Source of the DNA: Tunturiibacter empetritectus
GTDB lineage: Bacteria > Acidobacteriota > Terriglobia > Terriglobales > Acidobacteriaceae
NCBI RefSeq assembly: GCF_013410875.1
Contig: NZ_JACCCU010000001.1
Location: 744,001-808,000, forward strand
Length of the DNA stretch: 64,000 nucleotides
Direction of reading: 5' to 3'
The notes beneath the pieces were generated by a model, which worked only from the letters and a program-made list of their open reading frames with translations, did no database searches and was not told the DNA's origin. The translations under genes were made by a program, and so were the position numbers. The first letter of the stretch is position 1, and every line of letters begins with the position of its first letter. This document shows, one piece after another, positions 4,537 to 54,137 of this stretch.

Positions 4537-5970
4537 TCAGCGCGGCTTGTGGCGTTGACCTCGTTTGCCTTTGTCATGCGTCTCTGCTGCTTTCGACGCC
4601 TTGGCCCTGGTATCGTCCGGTTGCGGCAACTCCCATCCCGCCATGCCCTGCAACACGCGGTCGGCGTGCTTGATGGTGTTCACGTGCCCGTAGTGGCTTT
4701 CAATCATGTGGACGGAAGTTCCCATCTGCTCAGCAAGGAAATACACGTCTACGCCTTCCTGCAACCGGAGCGTGGCATACGTGTGCCGGAAGCAATAAGT
4801 CGAGCGCGGCACGCCCTGCGTGCCTTCGCGCAGATTCGCTTCGTTCAGAAGATCGGCAATCAAGGAACTATACAGCGTCTTCGCGGGCTTGCCGGTGACG
4901 TTGGTAAATACTCTGTCGTACGGTTCCGTGGCTTTGGAGATTGCGCGAATGCGTTCCAAATAATCTCCGACGCTCTTGGGCGCAACCAACTTGCGCGATT
5001 TGCCCTTGCCCTGCACGAACAAGACAACGATCTCGCGGCCCTCGCGGTCTTTTGCGGGCATGATGTCGCGCCAGCGAAGATTCTTCATCTCCGCTGGCCT
5101 CATGCCCGTATTGCAGGCAATCAGAATCAAGTTGTAGGTGACGGTACGATACCAAACGCTTGACGGCTTATCCGCCTCGGCAATCCACTTGCGGCCTACG
5201 GTATGGAGTTTGCGATACTCCTCAAGCGTGAACTCGTCACGCCGCATCGTCTTGAGCTTGGGGCGCTCGTCGAAACGCTGGCTTGCGGGAACATATCGTT
5301 TCTTCACCGCATAATTCATGATCGCGCCGAAGATGGACATCTCGAAGCGGATGGTGGAATCACTGATGAAAGGGACCACCCGTTCTTCGGAAGGTTTGAC
5401 TTCAATCGGTTTCAACACTCGGATGCCCAAAGTCTGCTGAACCTTGGTGCGGCGCTCGGCTTCATGGTCTGCGAAGGTTTGCGCTGCGTCGGCGGTAACT
5501 TCTCGAACGCCGTTGCGCCGGTGGCGTCCCGCGCCGTTCTCCCGCCGCCATGCCGGATAGCCGCCCCATCGTTCGTCACCGATAAGATGGACCTGCGCGG
5601 AACCGGCGTACCGATCTAAGGTGCCCTCGATGACGGCACGGAGTTTCTTGGGCCGGGCGGCGCTGATCTCTCCACGCTTCGCTCGCGCCTCCTGCGTCAG
5701 CAAATACTCGTGCGCCACGTCGCGGAAGGGGCGATTGAACACAGGAACGTCATGCTTGATGCGGAATCGAACGTCTGCGTCCTGATCGAAGGCCCGCTCG
5801 CGGGCCGCGCTGATGTCGGTTGTTTTAAGCGAAACTGTCTTGTAGCGGTCGGCCTTCGGCATCTTCATGCGGCAGTACCACATCCGGTGGTCCACGTCGC
5901 CGCGCCGGAAAAGAATCAGGCCGGGTTTCAGCTCCTCTTTCTCGGTAACAAAGGCCATATTCGCCTCCAT
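4537..5970 (-). CDS. Phage-type tyrosine integrase
   Basis: A 477-residue integrase with an N-terminal DNA-binding arm, a core-binding domain (about 75-235) and a catalytic domain (about 245-440). Visible catalytic residues are Arg291 (NTGMRPAEM), Arg395 in YCFRHTYAT, and Tyr427 in SHYGHV. The box-II His position appears to be Tyr392 and the GH motif reads GTS, a variation common in island integrases. The C-terminal 30 residues are basic and Lys-rich. The Met at residue 5 (MAFVTEK) is an alternative start. It differs from the two recombinases at the left edge, so the island probably contains two separate integration events. No cargo gene or tRNA target is obvious next to it. Confidence 0.88.
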   Translation of the reverse strand: MEANMAFVTEKEELKPGLILFRRGDVDHRMWYCRMKMPKADRYKTVSLKTTDISAARERAFDQDADVRFRIKHDVPVFNRPFRDVAHEYLLTQEARAKRGEISAARPKKLRAVIEGTLDRYAGSAQVHLIGDERWGGYPAWRRENGAGRHRRNGVREVTADAAQTFADHEAERRTKVQQTLGIRVLKPIEVKPSEERVVPFISDSTIRFEMSIFGAIMNYAVKKRYVPASQRFDERPKLKTMRRDEFTLEEYRKLHTVGRKWIAEADKPSSVWYRTVTYNLILIACNTGMRPAEMKNLRWRDIMPAKDREGREIVVLFVQGKGKSRKLVAPKSVGDYLERIRAISKATEPYDRVFTNVTGKPAKTLYSSLIADLLNEANLREGTQGVPRSTYCFRHTYATLRLQEGVDVYFLAEQMGTSVHMIESHYGHVNTIKHADRVLQGMAGWELPQPDDTRAKASKAAETHDKGKRGQRHKPR

Positions 5971-6528
5971 CGTTTGACTGGTTCTGTGCAGATTCCGTGT
6001 AAATTACTCGTGCAAGCCATTGATTCTTCGTAGCTGTGCATACTTTGTACAGAAGATTATAGAAAATTATGTGCTTTATTTCTAGCTATTTATAATACAT
6101 TTCTCATCCTGAGCGGAGCGAAGGATCCCGACAAACTCGAAACCATCTTAACCGGGCTCGTCCCTTTCAGCCCATACTCACGTATTCTTCCCCTTACAAG
6201 AATCTATATAGCCCTGAGCTGGCAGTACCGCTCTTTCTTTGTCAACCCCCAAACTCACTAATCCCCGCGCCAGACAAGGAGATTCGCGTGGCGTATTAGT
6301 TTCACTCAACCAGCTATACTGGTAACAGGCTTCAAAAAGACCCCGGCGCAACTCCGGGGTTTTATCTTTTCCATGTAATCACACGCTAAACTGCACAAAA
6401 CAAGTATTTTAGCCGTAAGCCATTTGAAATGAATATTTTGCAGACACCATAGGCTTCTAACCCGCAGATTCGATTGAACTTGCGTACAAGATACCCCGAG
6501 AGGGGGGAGGGGGGTACCAGAGAGCACG
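5971..6528. other. Intergenic region, A/T-rich then a terminator, no gene seen
   Basis: Contains the probable promoter of the integrase gene, read to the left, in an A/T-rich stretch (6030-6100). A short motif (gagcggagcgaaggatccc, about 6111-6129) resembles a dispersed acidobacterial repeat I recall. A symmetric terminator lies at 6334-6370. A G-rich stretch (6501-6514) precedes the MATE start. No small ORF or structured RNA could be supported. Confidence 0.5.
6334..6370. terminator. Symmetric rho-independent terminator without an obvious client gene
   Basis: Perfect arms accccgg (6340-6346) and ccggggt (6354-6360) around a 7-nt loop. A T-rich tail follows on the plus strand (6361-6370) and an A-run precedes it (6334-6338), so it works on paper in both directions. 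No gene ends here, which raises the possibility of a short untracked transcript or a leader attenuator for the MATE gene. Confidence 0.7.
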
Positions 6529-16327: not shown

Positions 16328-17760
16328 CTCCCGCCTACGCGTATACCATTGCGCTCATTCTTCTTCTCGTTATCCTTGCGTTAGCTGCCTACGTCGATCG
16401 TGTCTACTCGGAGATGGGCAAATTCCTCGCCCGCGAATATCAGGACAACATCGACGCCTGGGAGAGTGTCGTCGAACCTCGTCTTCGTCTTGGTCGCGAG
16501 TCCATCGCACTCTCCGCCTCGGTTCTTCGCCAGCTCACGCTGGCAACCCTGGCCCTGCTTTCGGGCCTTCGCCTCTACACCCACACCAGCCTGGTTCCAA
16601 CCCTTGCACGTACACCCAGTCTTGGCGAGGTTCTGCGCGCAGTCTTCGAGCTCATTCTTCTCATCCTCATCTTCGACCGCCTGCTCCCGCAACTCCTTTT
16701 CTCCCGCACCCGCGGCCTCTGGATCGCGCGCATCCTTCCTCTTCTGCAGGCGCTCTTCTATCTCATTCTTCCGGTCACTATGCTGCTGCAGCTGCTTCTC
16801 TCTATTGCTGCCCTCGCTGAGCCGGAAGACACCACTGAAGAAGATCATCCCTCCGAAGCCATGGATGCTCTTCTTGAAGCCGGCGAAGAGGAGGGCATCC
16901 TCGAGGAGTCTGATCGCGAACTGGTCCGCTCTGCCGTGGAGTTTGGTGACAAGGTTGTCCTTGAGGTCATGACTCCTCGCCCTGAGATCTTCGCCGTTCC
17001 CGGCACCCTCACGCTGCAGGAGTTCACCGCGACGATCAACGAACATGCCTTCTCGCGTGTCCCGGTCTTCAACGGTTCGCTTGACCACGTCACCGGCATC
17101 GGCTTTGCCCATGACCTGCTCAAAGTACTTGACGCTGAGGCAAATACGCGCACGGTTGCTCAAATTCAGCGCCCCGCCGCCTTTGTTCCTGAGACCAAGA
17201 AAGTGGCTGAGCTGCTACGCGAGATGCAGCGCGAAAAACAGCACATGCGCATCGTCATCGACGAGTACGGAAGTGTTGCAGGCCTTGTCACCATTGAGGA
17301 TTTGCTTGAGGCGATCGTCGGAAACATTGCGGATGAGCATGATGAGCCTGAAGCGGATGACCAACCGATCCGCGAATCGAATGGCGCTTATGTGGTCTCG
17401 GGAGCGTTTGAGCTTTCGCGTCTGCGCGACCTTTTTGCCGATCAATTCGAGCCGAATCAACGGGTTACGCGGCCTGCTGAGGATGGGGAGCCGCATGAGC
17501 CTGAGGAGGAGGGGGTGGATTCAGGTGAGGGGGAGGTGACGGATCTTCGCGATACGCGGGACGATCCCACGGCGTTGCGGCTCCCGGAACACTATGAATC
17601 TACGACACTTGGGGGACTGGTCTCAGAGATCGCCGGGCATATTCCGCTGCCCGGGGAGGTGGTGGAAGAGGATGGACTGCGGCTGGAGGTGCTGGCCAGT
17701 ACGGACCGGCGGATCGACCGGATTCGGGTTAGTCTTACGGATCCTCCGGACCTTTCTTAG
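16324..17760 (+). CDS. CNNM/CorC-family transporter-associated protein (HlyC/CorC family)
   Basis: A 478-residue membrane protein. Residues 1-165 hold several hydrophobic helices (CNNM-like domain). Residues about 205-335 form a CBS pair beginning VLEVMTPRPEIFAV, with the typical RMRIVIDEYGSVAGLVTIEDLLEAIVG region (here HMRIVIDEYG). A C-terminal CorC_HlyC domain ends IDRIRVSL. An acidic insertion (DGEPHEPEEEGVDSGEGEV) splits that last domain at about 385-405. Members are tied to Mg2+/Co2+ efflux. ATGA coupling to ybeY makes it the last gene of the phoH-GH16-ybeY-corC run. Confidence 0.9.
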   Translation: MTPAYAYTIALILLLVILALAAYVDRVYSEMGKFLAREYQDNIDAWESVVEPRLRLGRESIALSASVLRQLTLATLALLSGLRLYTHTSLVPTLARTPSLGEVLRAVFELILLILIFDRLLPQLLFSRTRGLWIARILPLLQALFYLILPVTMLLQLLLSIAALAEPEDTTEEDHPSEAMDALLEAGEEEGILEESDRELVRSAVEFGDKVVLEVMTPRPEIFAVPGTLTLQEFTATINEHAFSRVPVFNGSLDHVTGIGFAHDLLKVLDAEANTRTVAQIQRPAAFVPETKKVAELLREMQREKQHMRIVIDEYGSVAGLVTIEDLLEAIVGNIADEHDEPEADDQPIRESNGAYVVSGAFELSRLRDLFADQFEPNQRVTRPAEDGEPHEPEEEGVDSGEGEVTDLRDTRDDPTALRLPEHYESTTLGGLVSEIAGHIPLPGEVVEEDGLRLEVLASTDRRIDRIRVSLTDPPDLS

Positions 17761-17830
17761 AGGATTTTTTGGAGTGTTTTTTCTTGTGTGGTGGAATGGG
17801 CGAAAAATAAGGGGATTTTGCGAAAATTGG

Positions 17831-17949
17831 GTGTTTTGACGTGGTGTTTTGCTGGTGGGAGTGTGGTGGTTTGCGTGGCTGAGATGGTGTTTAAGCAGTC
17901 GTAGTTTCGGGCGCTAAAAATGCACCACGTTTTTCAACTTTATTTTTTG
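17831..17949. repeat. GTGGTG-rich dispersed repeat, copy 1
   Basis: About 119 bp that aligns by eye, at roughly 70 percent, with 43302-43419. Shared landmarks in order are gtgttttg, gtggtg, tgtggctga or gcgtggctga, tggtgttt, gtttcg, a stretch like aaaaatgcaccacgttttt, and actttatttt. No coding potential. Similarity may extend left toward 17785. Confidence 0.65.
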
Positions 17950-17960
17950 GGAAGAGACGC

Positions 17961-18180
17961 TGTCCTGCCGGACGGCCTCCTGCGCGGAGCGCGGTCACTT
18001 CGTGACTTGTATACCGCTTCGCATGGCGCTCCCGTTGGTCGCGAGGGAAGATTGATTCCGACCAACGGGAGGACCGCGCGAAGCTCTAAAAAGGCGTGCC
18101 AACGCCCGCCGCCGAATCGGGGTCCCCACAAACAGGTCTTCGTTTGTGGGGTGACCAAGCAGGGGCCGTCCGGCAGGACA
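17961..18180. repeat. Multi-hairpin structured element, copy A
   Basis: Perfect 17-bp terminal inverted repeats (17961-17977 and 18164-18180). Inside are GTCAC-ttc-GTGAC (17994-18006) nested in GCGGT/ACCGC (17991-17995, 18013-18017), and a perfect 13-bp stem (18029-18041 with 18059-18071). A ggcgt/acgcc stem lies at about 18093-18106, and an extra 10-bp stem CCCCACAAAC/GTTTGTGGGG (18124-18133, 18142-18151) is not present in copy B. The closely matching copy at 53888-54071 defines the family. It could be a mobile palindromic element (REP/MITE-like) or a transcribed structured RNA. Confidence 0.8.
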
Positions 18181-18201: not shown

Positions 18202-19266
18202 CTAGTCGATAGAGATCTTACGGAGCAGTTTGAAGTCGGAGAGCATCTTTCCTGTTCCCAGCACCACCGAGGCGAGGGGATCATCGGCGATGGAGACGGG
18301 AAGCCCGGTCTCCTCGCGGATGCGCTTGTCGAGGTTCTTGATGAGCGCGCCGCCGCCAGTGAGGACGATGCCGCGGTCGGAGATGTCTGCGGAGAGCTCG
18401 GGCGGGGTCCGCTCTAGTGCTACGCGGATGGCATTGATGATGGTTGCGATGCTCTCCGAGAGGGCTTCGCGGATCTCGGAGTCTTCGATGGTGATGGTCT
18501 TCGGCACGCCCTCGATGAGGTTGCGGCCTTTGACCTCCATGGAGAGGGGCTTGTCGAGCGGATAGGCCGAGCCGAGGGAGATCTTGATCTGCTCTGCGGT
18601 GCGCTCGCCGATGAGCAGGTTGTACTTCCGCTTGAGGTAGGTCATCACGGCCTCGTCCATCTGGTTTCCGGCCATGCGCACGGAGCGGGAGTAGACGATG
18701 CCTGCGAGCGAGATCACCGCAATATCCGTGGTGCCGCCGCCGATGTCGACGACCATGTTGCCACCTGGCTCGGTGATGGGCAAACCCGCGCCAATGGCGG
18801 CGACCATGGCCTGTTCGACCAGGTGGACCTCAGAGGCTTTGGCGCGATAGGCCGAGTCCATGACGGCTCGTTTTTCAACCTGGGTGATCTCGGAGGGGAC
18901 GCCGATGACGATGCGCGGGTGAACCATCATCTTCCGGTTATGCGCCTTCTGGATGAAGTAGTTCAGCATCTTTTCGGTGTGGCGGAAGTCGGCGATGACG
19001 CCGTCCTTCATCGGCTTGATGGCGACGATGTTTCCCGGCGTGCGGCCGAGCATCTCCTTGGCCTCTTTGCCGACGGCTTCAACCTCGTTGGTGATCTTGT
19101 TCACCGCGATGATGGAGGGCTCGTTGACGATGATGCCTTTGCCGTGTGCGAAGACGAGCGTGTTCGCCGTGCCGAGGTCGATAGCAAGGTCGCTGGAAAA
19201 GAGGCTGAAAAGAGACCGCATATTGTGAATGCGGGAGTAACGCATCTGAAAACTATTCGAAGACAT
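18202..19266 (-). CDS. mreB: Rod-shape-determining actin homologue MreB
   Basis: A 354-residue bacterial actin that polymerises under the inner membrane and guides the elongation machinery. It shows phosphate-1 DLAIDLGTANTLVF, the MVVDIGGGTTDIAV phosphate-2 motif and the adenosine loop GIVLTGGGALIKNLD. The start may instead be the Met at 19221 (MRSLFSLFSSDLAIDLG), which is closer to typical MreB lengths (about 340). It is separated by ten kilobases from mreC-mreD-mrdA-rodA (29.3-34.3 kb), so its expression is uncoupled from theirs. The stop lies 22 bases from structured element A. Confidence 0.96.
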   Translation of the reverse strand: MSSNSFQMRYSRIHNMRSLFSLFSSDLAIDLGTANTLVFAHGKGIIVNEPSIIAVNKITNEVEAVGKEAKEMLGRTPGNIVAIKPMKDGVIADFRHTEKMLNYFIQKAHNRKMMVHPRIVIGVPSEITQVEKRAVMDSAYRAKASEVHLVEQAMVAAIGAGLPITEPGGNMVVDIGGGTTDIAVISLAGIVYSRSVRMAGNQMDEAVMTYLKRKYNLLIGERTAEQIKISLGSAYPLDKPLSMEVKGRNLIEGVPKTITIEDSEIREALSESIATIINAIRVALERTPPELSADISDRGIVLTGGGALIKNLDKRIREETGLPVSIADDPLASVVLGTGKMLSDFKLLRKISID

Positions 19267-53644: not shown

Positions 53645-53884
53645 ATGACCAGCGAGGATCTGGCTCTTCTCAAATCGAGTATCGACCTCGTCGTCACGCT
53701 TGAGACGGTCGAAGGCGAGCGGTTTCCGGCTCAAATTCTCTTCGTCTTCGATGCCGAAGAGACCCCCGATGTCTTTTACCTGAAGGTTGAGCCCGGTCCC
53801 AACGGCAACTTCGTCCCGATAGGGACTGGCGGTCATTCGACCCTGCTGGCGGATATCGCCGCGGTTCATCGTCTGGAGTCCTGA
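53645..53884 (+). CDS. Small conserved-looking hypothetical protein
   Basis: 79 residues (MTSEDLALLKSSIDLVVTLETVEGERFPAQILFVFDAEETPDVFYLKVEP...). The composition is protein-like and mixed, the ATG is 18 bp after the MaoC stop, and codon use matches neighbours. The predicted fold is strand-rich. No family is recognised. Its stop is directly followed by structured element B (53888). Confidence 0.65.
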   Translation: MTSEDLALLKSSIDLVVTLETVEGERFPAQILFVFDAEETPDVFYLKVEPGPNGNFVPIGTGGHSTLLADIAAVHRLES

Positions 53885-53887
53885 AAA

Positions 53888-54071
53888 GCTGTCCTGCCGG
53901 ACGGGCCCACTACGCGTGGGGCGGTCACTTCGTGACGTGTGTACCGCTGCGCCTGATCCTCCCGTTGGTCGGAGGAGAAGTTGATTCCGACCAACGGGAG
54001 GAGCGAGCGAAGCTTTAAAAAGGCGTGCGAACGCCCGCCCTCCGCGCAGGAGGCCCGTCCGGCAGGACAGC
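53888..54071. repeat. Multi-hairpin structured element, copy B
   Basis: Perfect 20-bp terminal inverted repeats (53888-53907 and 54052-54071) enclose five hairpins: CCCAC-tacgc-GTGGG (53906-53920); GCGGT...ACCGC (53921-53947) with an inner GTCAC-ttc-GTGAC; a perfect 15-bp stem (53958-53972 with 53987-54001); GGCGT-GCGA-ACGCC (54022-54035, a GNRA-type tetraloop); and CCTCC-GCGCA-GGAGG (54039-54053). The first and last overlap the terminal arms by two bases, so alternative pairings exist. It shares terminal repeats and most inner stems with copy A (17961-18180). It begins four bases after a stop codon and ends 64 bp before the MBL gene. Confidence 0.82.
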
Positions 54072-54137
54072 ATCTGGGGGGAACCAATCTGGTTACCCTG
54101 GCGACATACTCACAACCAATCGGCGTATCCTAACGTG

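Follow-up and report, generated by a model that had tools for sequence, protein, structure and literature searches.

The near-palindromic element at positions 53888–54071 of the window, the stretch of 64,000 nucleotides of Tunturiibacter empetritectus DNA that was analysed, is probably a copy of a genus-specific and new REP/MITE-like family of non-autonomous mobile palindromes. Its copies would have spread via an enzyme acting in trans on the folded single strand or on the end repeats; inverted-repeat recombination and exchange between copies may later have reshaped the interior, and selection or copying would keep every hairpin foldable. The original prediction had named a REP/MITE-like mobile element and a transcribed RNA side by side; copy number, genus-wide spread and empty sites favour the mobile element, and the RNA finds no match in Rfam. 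The Acidobacteriota hereby gain a structurally elaborate palindrome family. Its near-single-copy, few-copy and copy-rich species, with both filled and empty sites, form a natural series for testing the spread, the hairpin covariation, the in-place inversion and the domestication of a mobile palindrome.

The element begins 3 nt after the stop codon of a small frame on the plus strand (53645–53884), and the next frame in the 3′ direction, also on the plus strand, starts at position 54135. Its 184 bases, delimited by the fold, BLAST matches and empty orthologous sites and read on the plus strand with the left-type half on the left, form a near-palindrome that is closed by a perfect stem of 20 bp and has a long central stem flanked on each side by two outer hairpins. 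The left terminal inverted repeat (53888–53907), which contains the family core TGTCCTGCCGGACGG and is identified by end-repeat matches and the fold, leads into the left hairpin 2 (53907–53919; stem CCAC/GTGG, loop TACGC), a covarying helix with compensatory changes among copies, and then into a left-type hairpin 3 (53924–53936; GTCAC-TTC-GTGAC) that is a helix in the alignment of 25 copies described below. The central stem-loop CCTCCCGTTGGTCGG / CCGACCAACGGGAGG (53958–54001) and the right-type hairpin 3 (54022–54035; GGCGT-GCGA-ACGCC, followed by TTTTT in the minus-strand reading) are seen in both alignment and fold. The right hairpin 2 (54039–54053; CCTCC/GGAGG, loop GCGCA) is again a helix in the 25-copy alignment, and end-repeat matches and the fold identify the right terminal inverted repeat (54052–54071). 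The coordinates, the 20-bp closing stem and the five internal hairpins that had been predicted are borne out by the perfect stem and the fold, and the GNRA-type loop GCGA is present at 54027–54030.

Folded as RNA, positions 53888–54071 reach −130.8 kcal/mol with 20 outer closing pairs (z −12.1; all 200 shuffles fold less well), the opposite strand gives z −13.9, and with DNA parameters the fold has z −10.6. The fold of lowest energy pairs the two hairpin-2 arms in part with one another, not locally. Across the 25 aligned copies the local pairs are formed in 96 of 98 and 99 of 100 cells and the competing long-range pairs in 135 of 198, and since the local pairs hold better among the copies, the paper fold with five separate hairpins has the better support. 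Of the frames that overlap the element, with 143, 73 and 50 codons, we judge none to be a gene, in keeping with the earlier view of the element as non-coding.

The second copy reported at 17961–18180 (plus strand) is real, with a BLAST match at G000:C1:761959-762110, and the orthologous site in the relative G014 is occupied too. It is situated between a frame ending at 17760 and a gene on the other strand ending at 18202, which we take to be mreB-like. The one branch said to differ is a replaced right hairpin 2: a long hairpin module CCCCACAAAC..GTTTGTGGGG (18118–18156, plus strand) occupies the place where the orthologous element in G014 has an ordinary short hairpin 2. The long module CCCCACAAACGAAGACCTGTTTGTGGGG was seen at L026, L108, L109, L127, L133, L157, L233 and window 18118–18156, and in the copies seen it supplants the 3′ arm of hairpin 2 at roughly one point, as if by cassette exchange. 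G014 shares a conserved spacer in front of the second copy (window 17760–17950), and another intergenic region has a recurrence of a motif like GTTGAAAAACGTGG (L011, L031).

The covariance-model search that had been proposed as a check was run with a half-unit model built from 34 of 57 halves, and it revealed many copies in one genus. Far from there being only two copies, the host genome has at least 151 half-unit matches, and at least 151 were likewise found in a conspecific genome, 150 candidates having been scored in each. Among the 150 genomes searched, 37 (host included) have matches, all of them within the genus of the window, and under strict filters by which weak matches may be lost there was no match in any of 69 other genera. 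Sixteen genomes are copy-rich, with at least 34 half-unit matches each, and 14 of the 150 have only one or two. A DNA search agrees, with the family in 24 of 61 genomes (host included) and in one genus of 17; among the matches listed, the records with the pattern are entered as Edaphobacter lichenicola, Granulicella sp., Terriglobus and other Acidobacteriaceae. In the host genome itself BLAST gives at least 85 matches in the 40 scored out of 229 candidate places, many of them being one place matched on both strands. When up to two mismatches are allowed, the end core TGTCCTGCCGGACGG is found 285 times and its reversed control 9 times.

The family unit consists of two inverted homologous halves of ~85 nt each, and each half is built from an end repeat, hairpin 2, hairpin 3, a linker and one strand of the central stem. 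Because the halves face each other, the whole element approximates its own reverse complement and is foldable as a multi-armed hairpin or cruciform from either strand. Hairpin 2 has a variable stem and a mostly conserved TRCGC loop, and exists in short and long forms; hairpin 3 occurs in interchangeable types, namely GTCAC-TTC-GTGAC, GGCGT-TCGC-ACGCC followed by TTTTT, and GGTGC-TCAC-GCACC followed by TTTTT. Single halves or damaged pairs are common: within 566 kb of host DNA, selected because it contains ends, a partner end at 100–330 bp is present for 65 halves and missing for 47.

The claim that pairing is conserved despite changed sequence holds true: the hairpin-2 stems covary and are 98–99% paired. 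The alignment of 25 full copies comprises 22 of 30 host loci and three from relatives, with L021, L023–L027, L029 and L030 left out for large differences or inserts. Its 59 pairs are formed in 92.5% of 1472 cells, compared to 33–45% with slid partners. Double-change cells, which are not independent events since the copies have common ancestry, number 46 against 12.8 in shuffles, and the covariation score is 0.127 against 0.066; further pair types show no excess (37 against 36.2 in shuffles). Double changes are found in 7, 7, 10 and 1 of the 25 copies in the left hairpin 2, for which seven fully matched stem types are seen among copies, in 2, 7, 5 and 0 in the right hairpin 2, and in 2 and 2 in the left hairpin 3. 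The closing stem is nearly invariant and therefore uninformative on covariation, and four central-helix pairs that were derived from the linker of one copy are mostly unpaired in the alignment.

The site of the window copy is defined, and the element has been either acquired or lost there. Thirteen congeners were searched at this site and eight aligned: three are occupied, namely G032, G025 (without the right end) and G014 (without the left end), and five are empty (G085, G002, G072, G029 and G079). The empty sites have only a spacer of 13–25 nt between the stop codon and a conserved GAACCAA/GAATCAA motif. In the host, 16 nt of the site lie outside the element, or 14 with the flanking GC counted a single time, so that the inserted DNA corresponds roughly to the element including both end repeats. 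An older insertion followed by losses could also account for the site, and the empty state of G085 may be a deletion, since G014, which is apparently close to it, has a damaged copy. Flanking duplications, proposed originally as a mark of mobility, are not consistent among the flanks compared. The sole candidate at the window copy is GC/GC, which is indistinguishable from the end repeat; the flanks of other copies contain no constant target-site duplication, just a weak continuation of the end repeat outwards, and one other site is flanked, as judged by eye, by a 7-nt near-repeat (AACAAGC-like).

Several element sites in a 20-kb syntenic block are common to species that are 79–89% identical; two of these shared sites are without the element in G002 and G072, and G029 has a scar at one. 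In the conspecific genome the list of element sites looks by eye largely collinear with that of the host, and eight region pairs compared between the two contain no clean insertion, only internal deletions, replaced stretches or no difference; movement is thus slow on the conspecific scale. Elements at fixed sites are inverted or hairpin-swapped between species. At a site between a terminase-like gene and a HipA-like gene the element of the host (G000) is 70% identical to that of G032 as it stands and 88% when reverse-complemented, with the 34-nt right flank at 88% and four-fold sites at 80–85%, and by eye the hairpin-3 types stand in flipped order at the window site of G014 and at a different site of G032. 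Among four copy-rich species at the terminase/HipA site the identity of the element is below that of the neighbours' four-fold sites in two of six pairs, about equal in two and above it in two, and turnover of the interior is consequently clear in some comparisons only.

The original prediction had allowed for a match to an already described element or Rfam family; none emerged from the literature and Rfam searched. No published description of the family was found in open-licence PubMed Central papers, and the available part of one paper discusses repeats in another acidobacterium without this family (PMC3174227). The family resembles a REPIN or a MITE and fails the tested defining features of REPs, that is the tag and the flanking transposase. 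REPINs and BIMEs, which the available parts of three papers describe as REP pairs linked to RAYT (PMC3116915, PMC8049555, PMC3733652), share with it the opposed palindromes, the high copy number, the confinement to a genus, the occurrence of pairs together with unpartnered halves, the varying stems and the frequent nearness to gene 3′ ends. However, the half-unit of the family measures ~85 nt and includes several hairpins, in contrast to 20–40 nt for theirs; it has no GTAG/GTGG tag and no adjacent RAYT in the loci examined, and there are copy-rich genomes without the transposase family being detected. As far as the available part of PMC3733652 describes them, the TIRYT-associated TIR repeats of Acidobacteria come from the same phylum and are long, partly self-complementary inverted repeats that are single or paired, but they flank a tyrosine transposase gene, which no tested locus does, and by this description they would be set apart. 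The same part of that source gives bacterial MITEs (ERIC, NEMIS and others) as non-coding, strongly folding elements of 70–300 bp with terminal inverted repeats of 15–30 bp (PMC3733652). The family is short and non-coding as well, has terminal inverted repeats and presents a defined empty site in five of eight species, whereas no target-site duplication or parent transposon was found for it, and it has covarying internal hairpin modules and in-place inversion. Like the family, CGTC-tagged REPs are palindromes without known transposase, and the family unit starts with TGTC, a listed CGTC variant; theirs is a single stem of 8–9 bp, mostly with a CCA tail, and the family unit by eye has neither, and Acidobacteria are not among the five phyla listed in the part of the source that was available (PMC3733652).

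That the halves are REPs or REPINs proper, moved by a RAYT or by a relative, a TIRYT, possibly encoded elsewhere in the genome, seems to us unlikely from the loci compared. Dispersed palindromes, inverted pairs together with unpartnered halves and inheritance within one genus are all consistent with it, the host encodes two REP-type tyrosine transposases, and the available part of PMC3733652 reports that four acidobacterial species have TIRYTs and that some of the TIRs form repeat families. Yet the end repeat occurs at none of the 32 Y1_Tnp loci examined (two show an isolated near-match to the central stem) and the element at none of the 30 REP_Tyr_transpos loci examined (two have end-like matches without the next hairpin), which leaves a RAYT as adjacent driver unsupported. 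In 6 of the 16 copy-rich genomes (G002, G005, G014, G028, G029 and G083) there is no REP_Tyr_transpos match at E ≤ 0.01, and G002, G014, G028 and G029 are without any Y1_Tnp match too, whereas all four near-single-copy genomes have REP_Tyr_transpos matches. The unit ends with TGTCCTGCCGGACGG in the half and full alignments, with no GTAG/GTGG tag, and both host transposase genes are by eye flanked by other palindromes. At L050 the gene (1462–1923) has palindromes of its own on both sides, and at L051 the gene (1465–1893) has one upstream, again by eye; these palindromes are of a GGTGCCCCATCC...GGGTGGGG type and a GGGCACGGCTTTAGCCG type and apparently represent two further REP systems.

The existence of copy-rich genomes without a detected REP-type tyrosine transposase points to another mobiliser or to one now lost. 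Facing ends 450–6000 bp apart delimit 46 intervals with 85 reading frames in the 1.40 Mb examined; of the 39 frames compared to Pfam, 26 belong to ordinary families, 13 have no match and none is a transposase. An autonomous transposon between distant facing ends thus gained no support, and the inspected intervals are neighbouring independent copies or halves around other genes. We give hardly any credence to the idea that the terminase-like protein encoded beside the conserved copy mobilises the family, even though the arrangement of terminase, element and HipA recurs in five genomes and 12 of 30 loci are occupied, including those of four genomes that have almost no copy elsewhere. Genomes usually contain the gene once, and it is present in 18 other genera where the element search found none; the protein has no match at E ≤ 1e-10 in the copy-rich genomes G025, G085 and G077. 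On these grounds we mostly reject it as the mobiliser. What remains is a lost or unrecognised enzyme acting in trans, and this missing enzyme is the concrete open question that the family raises.

Two further readings are at the level of RNA. A structured RNA family, the element being transcribed and working as RNA, would account for the covariation at hairpins 2 and 3, and also for four near-single-copy species in which pairing is standard at all scorable sites with three stem types per hairpin 3 and the copies are conserved above silent sites. This reading is nonetheless distinctly unlikely: the two strands fold almost equally well, the orientation at one site flips between species, and covariation is possible for palindromes at the DNA level too. 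The whole window has no Rfam match at the gathering threshold, and four loci searched at E ≤ 1 gave matches below the gathering scores only. It appears very unlikely that the element is a terminator or mRNA 3′-end module in which the right-type hairpin 3 with its TTTTT would stop incoming transcripts. In its favour, the GC-rich hairpin and the T-run are kept while the stem changes (GGCGT/ACGCC, GGTGC/GCACC), and elements are often close behind stop codons; but the left-type halves have no T-run, and a terminator role implies that right-type halves should face gene 3′ ends. Counted up to 400 nt from a gene, the ratio of halves facing 3′ ends to those facing 5′ ends is 24:27 for the right type and 84:50 for the left type (Fisher p 0.067, in the wrong direction), and within 60 nt the ratios are 21:15 and 72:38 (p 0.55), so that these counts, made with crude gene calls, fail to support a terminator by orientation. 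The same crude calls put the median distance to gene 3′ ends at 40 nt (at most 30 nt in 42 of 89 cases) and to 5′ ends at 108 nt (at most 30 nt in 16 of 67). Among 78 elements with two called neighbours 39 are in tandem, 25 in convergent and 14 in divergent arrangements, the corresponding intergenic gaps numbering 212, 67 and 84. The crude calls also place 23 of 82 elements within long frames, which are probably mostly spurious.

Against the mobile family reading, which we prefer, stands the copy between the terminase-like and HipA-like genes, the conservation of which in four near-single-copy species exceeds the needs of a dying mobile element. Clustering of neighbouring frames recovers the arrangement of terminase-like gene (matching Terminase_6C and phrog_2), element and HipA-like kinase in five genomes. 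The terminase-like gene beside the kinase (L239–L268) is usually single-copy, occurs in 67 of 150 genomes, many of them without the element, and is apparently a domesticated phage gene. Among the best-scoring 30 of the 67 genomes with a match, a sample skewed to relatives of the query, 12 loci are occupied, 8 with both ends, which constitute the alignment of occupied loci, and 4 with the left end only; one end-like match in G021 (L258) was counted as chance, and the locus in G078 seems to retain a remnant of the element. On the terminase tree the occupied loci form two clusters, and three changes are needed, at least two of which are forced by well supported branches. The genomes G001, G073, G023 and G069 have 2 half-unit matches each at E ≤ 0.001 and 3, 3, 2 and 2 at E ≤ 0.05, and therefore hold essentially one copy; of the other ten genomes with one or two matches, G007, G015, G068 and G075 are unoccupied at this site.

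Between these four species the element is 77–94% identical in all six pairs, compared to 56–62% at four-fold sites of the terminase-like gene and 58–65% at those of the HipA-like gene. Fisher p values for element versus silent sites range from 0.029 to 5.8e-15, with sites treated as independent and counts rebuilt from rounded percentages. The 34-nt non-element flank (41–97%) is less similar than the element in four of the six pairs, equally so in one and more so in one, and local exchange may contribute in G001/G073 because element and flank are equally similar there. In the four species, 99 of 99 scorable pairs of hairpins 2, 3 and the centre are standard, as are 63 of 64 in the closing stem; each hairpin 3 occurs in three stem types, and G023 has lost the right hairpin 2; when copy-rich species are added, hairpin-3 pairing falls to 35/40 and 32/40, two types being out of register there. 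Conservation of a near-single copy, for which there are no further templates, suggests constraint; a reduced local mutation rate and between-species exchange are the alternatives, and the element at this site may possibly be retained for a local role. A bolder proposal is that in the near-single-copy clade the host took over the terminase/HipA element as a cis-acting structure under purifying selection, while genus-wide it is a mobile palindrome moved or remodelled by an unrecognised enzyme; we put this forward tentatively and regard it as rather doubtful. If true, one sequence would be both a mobile palindrome genus-wide and a domesticated regulatory or DNA-structural element.

A second widespread palindromic repeat, TGTCATCCTGAGCG...CGAAGGATC, adjoins or sits within elements at L095 (near 5820–6150), L130, L155, L213, L215 and L219. 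At L119 (near 11700) and L206 (near 5600) the end of an element is found within hairpin 2 of another, which suggests that one copy inserted into another.
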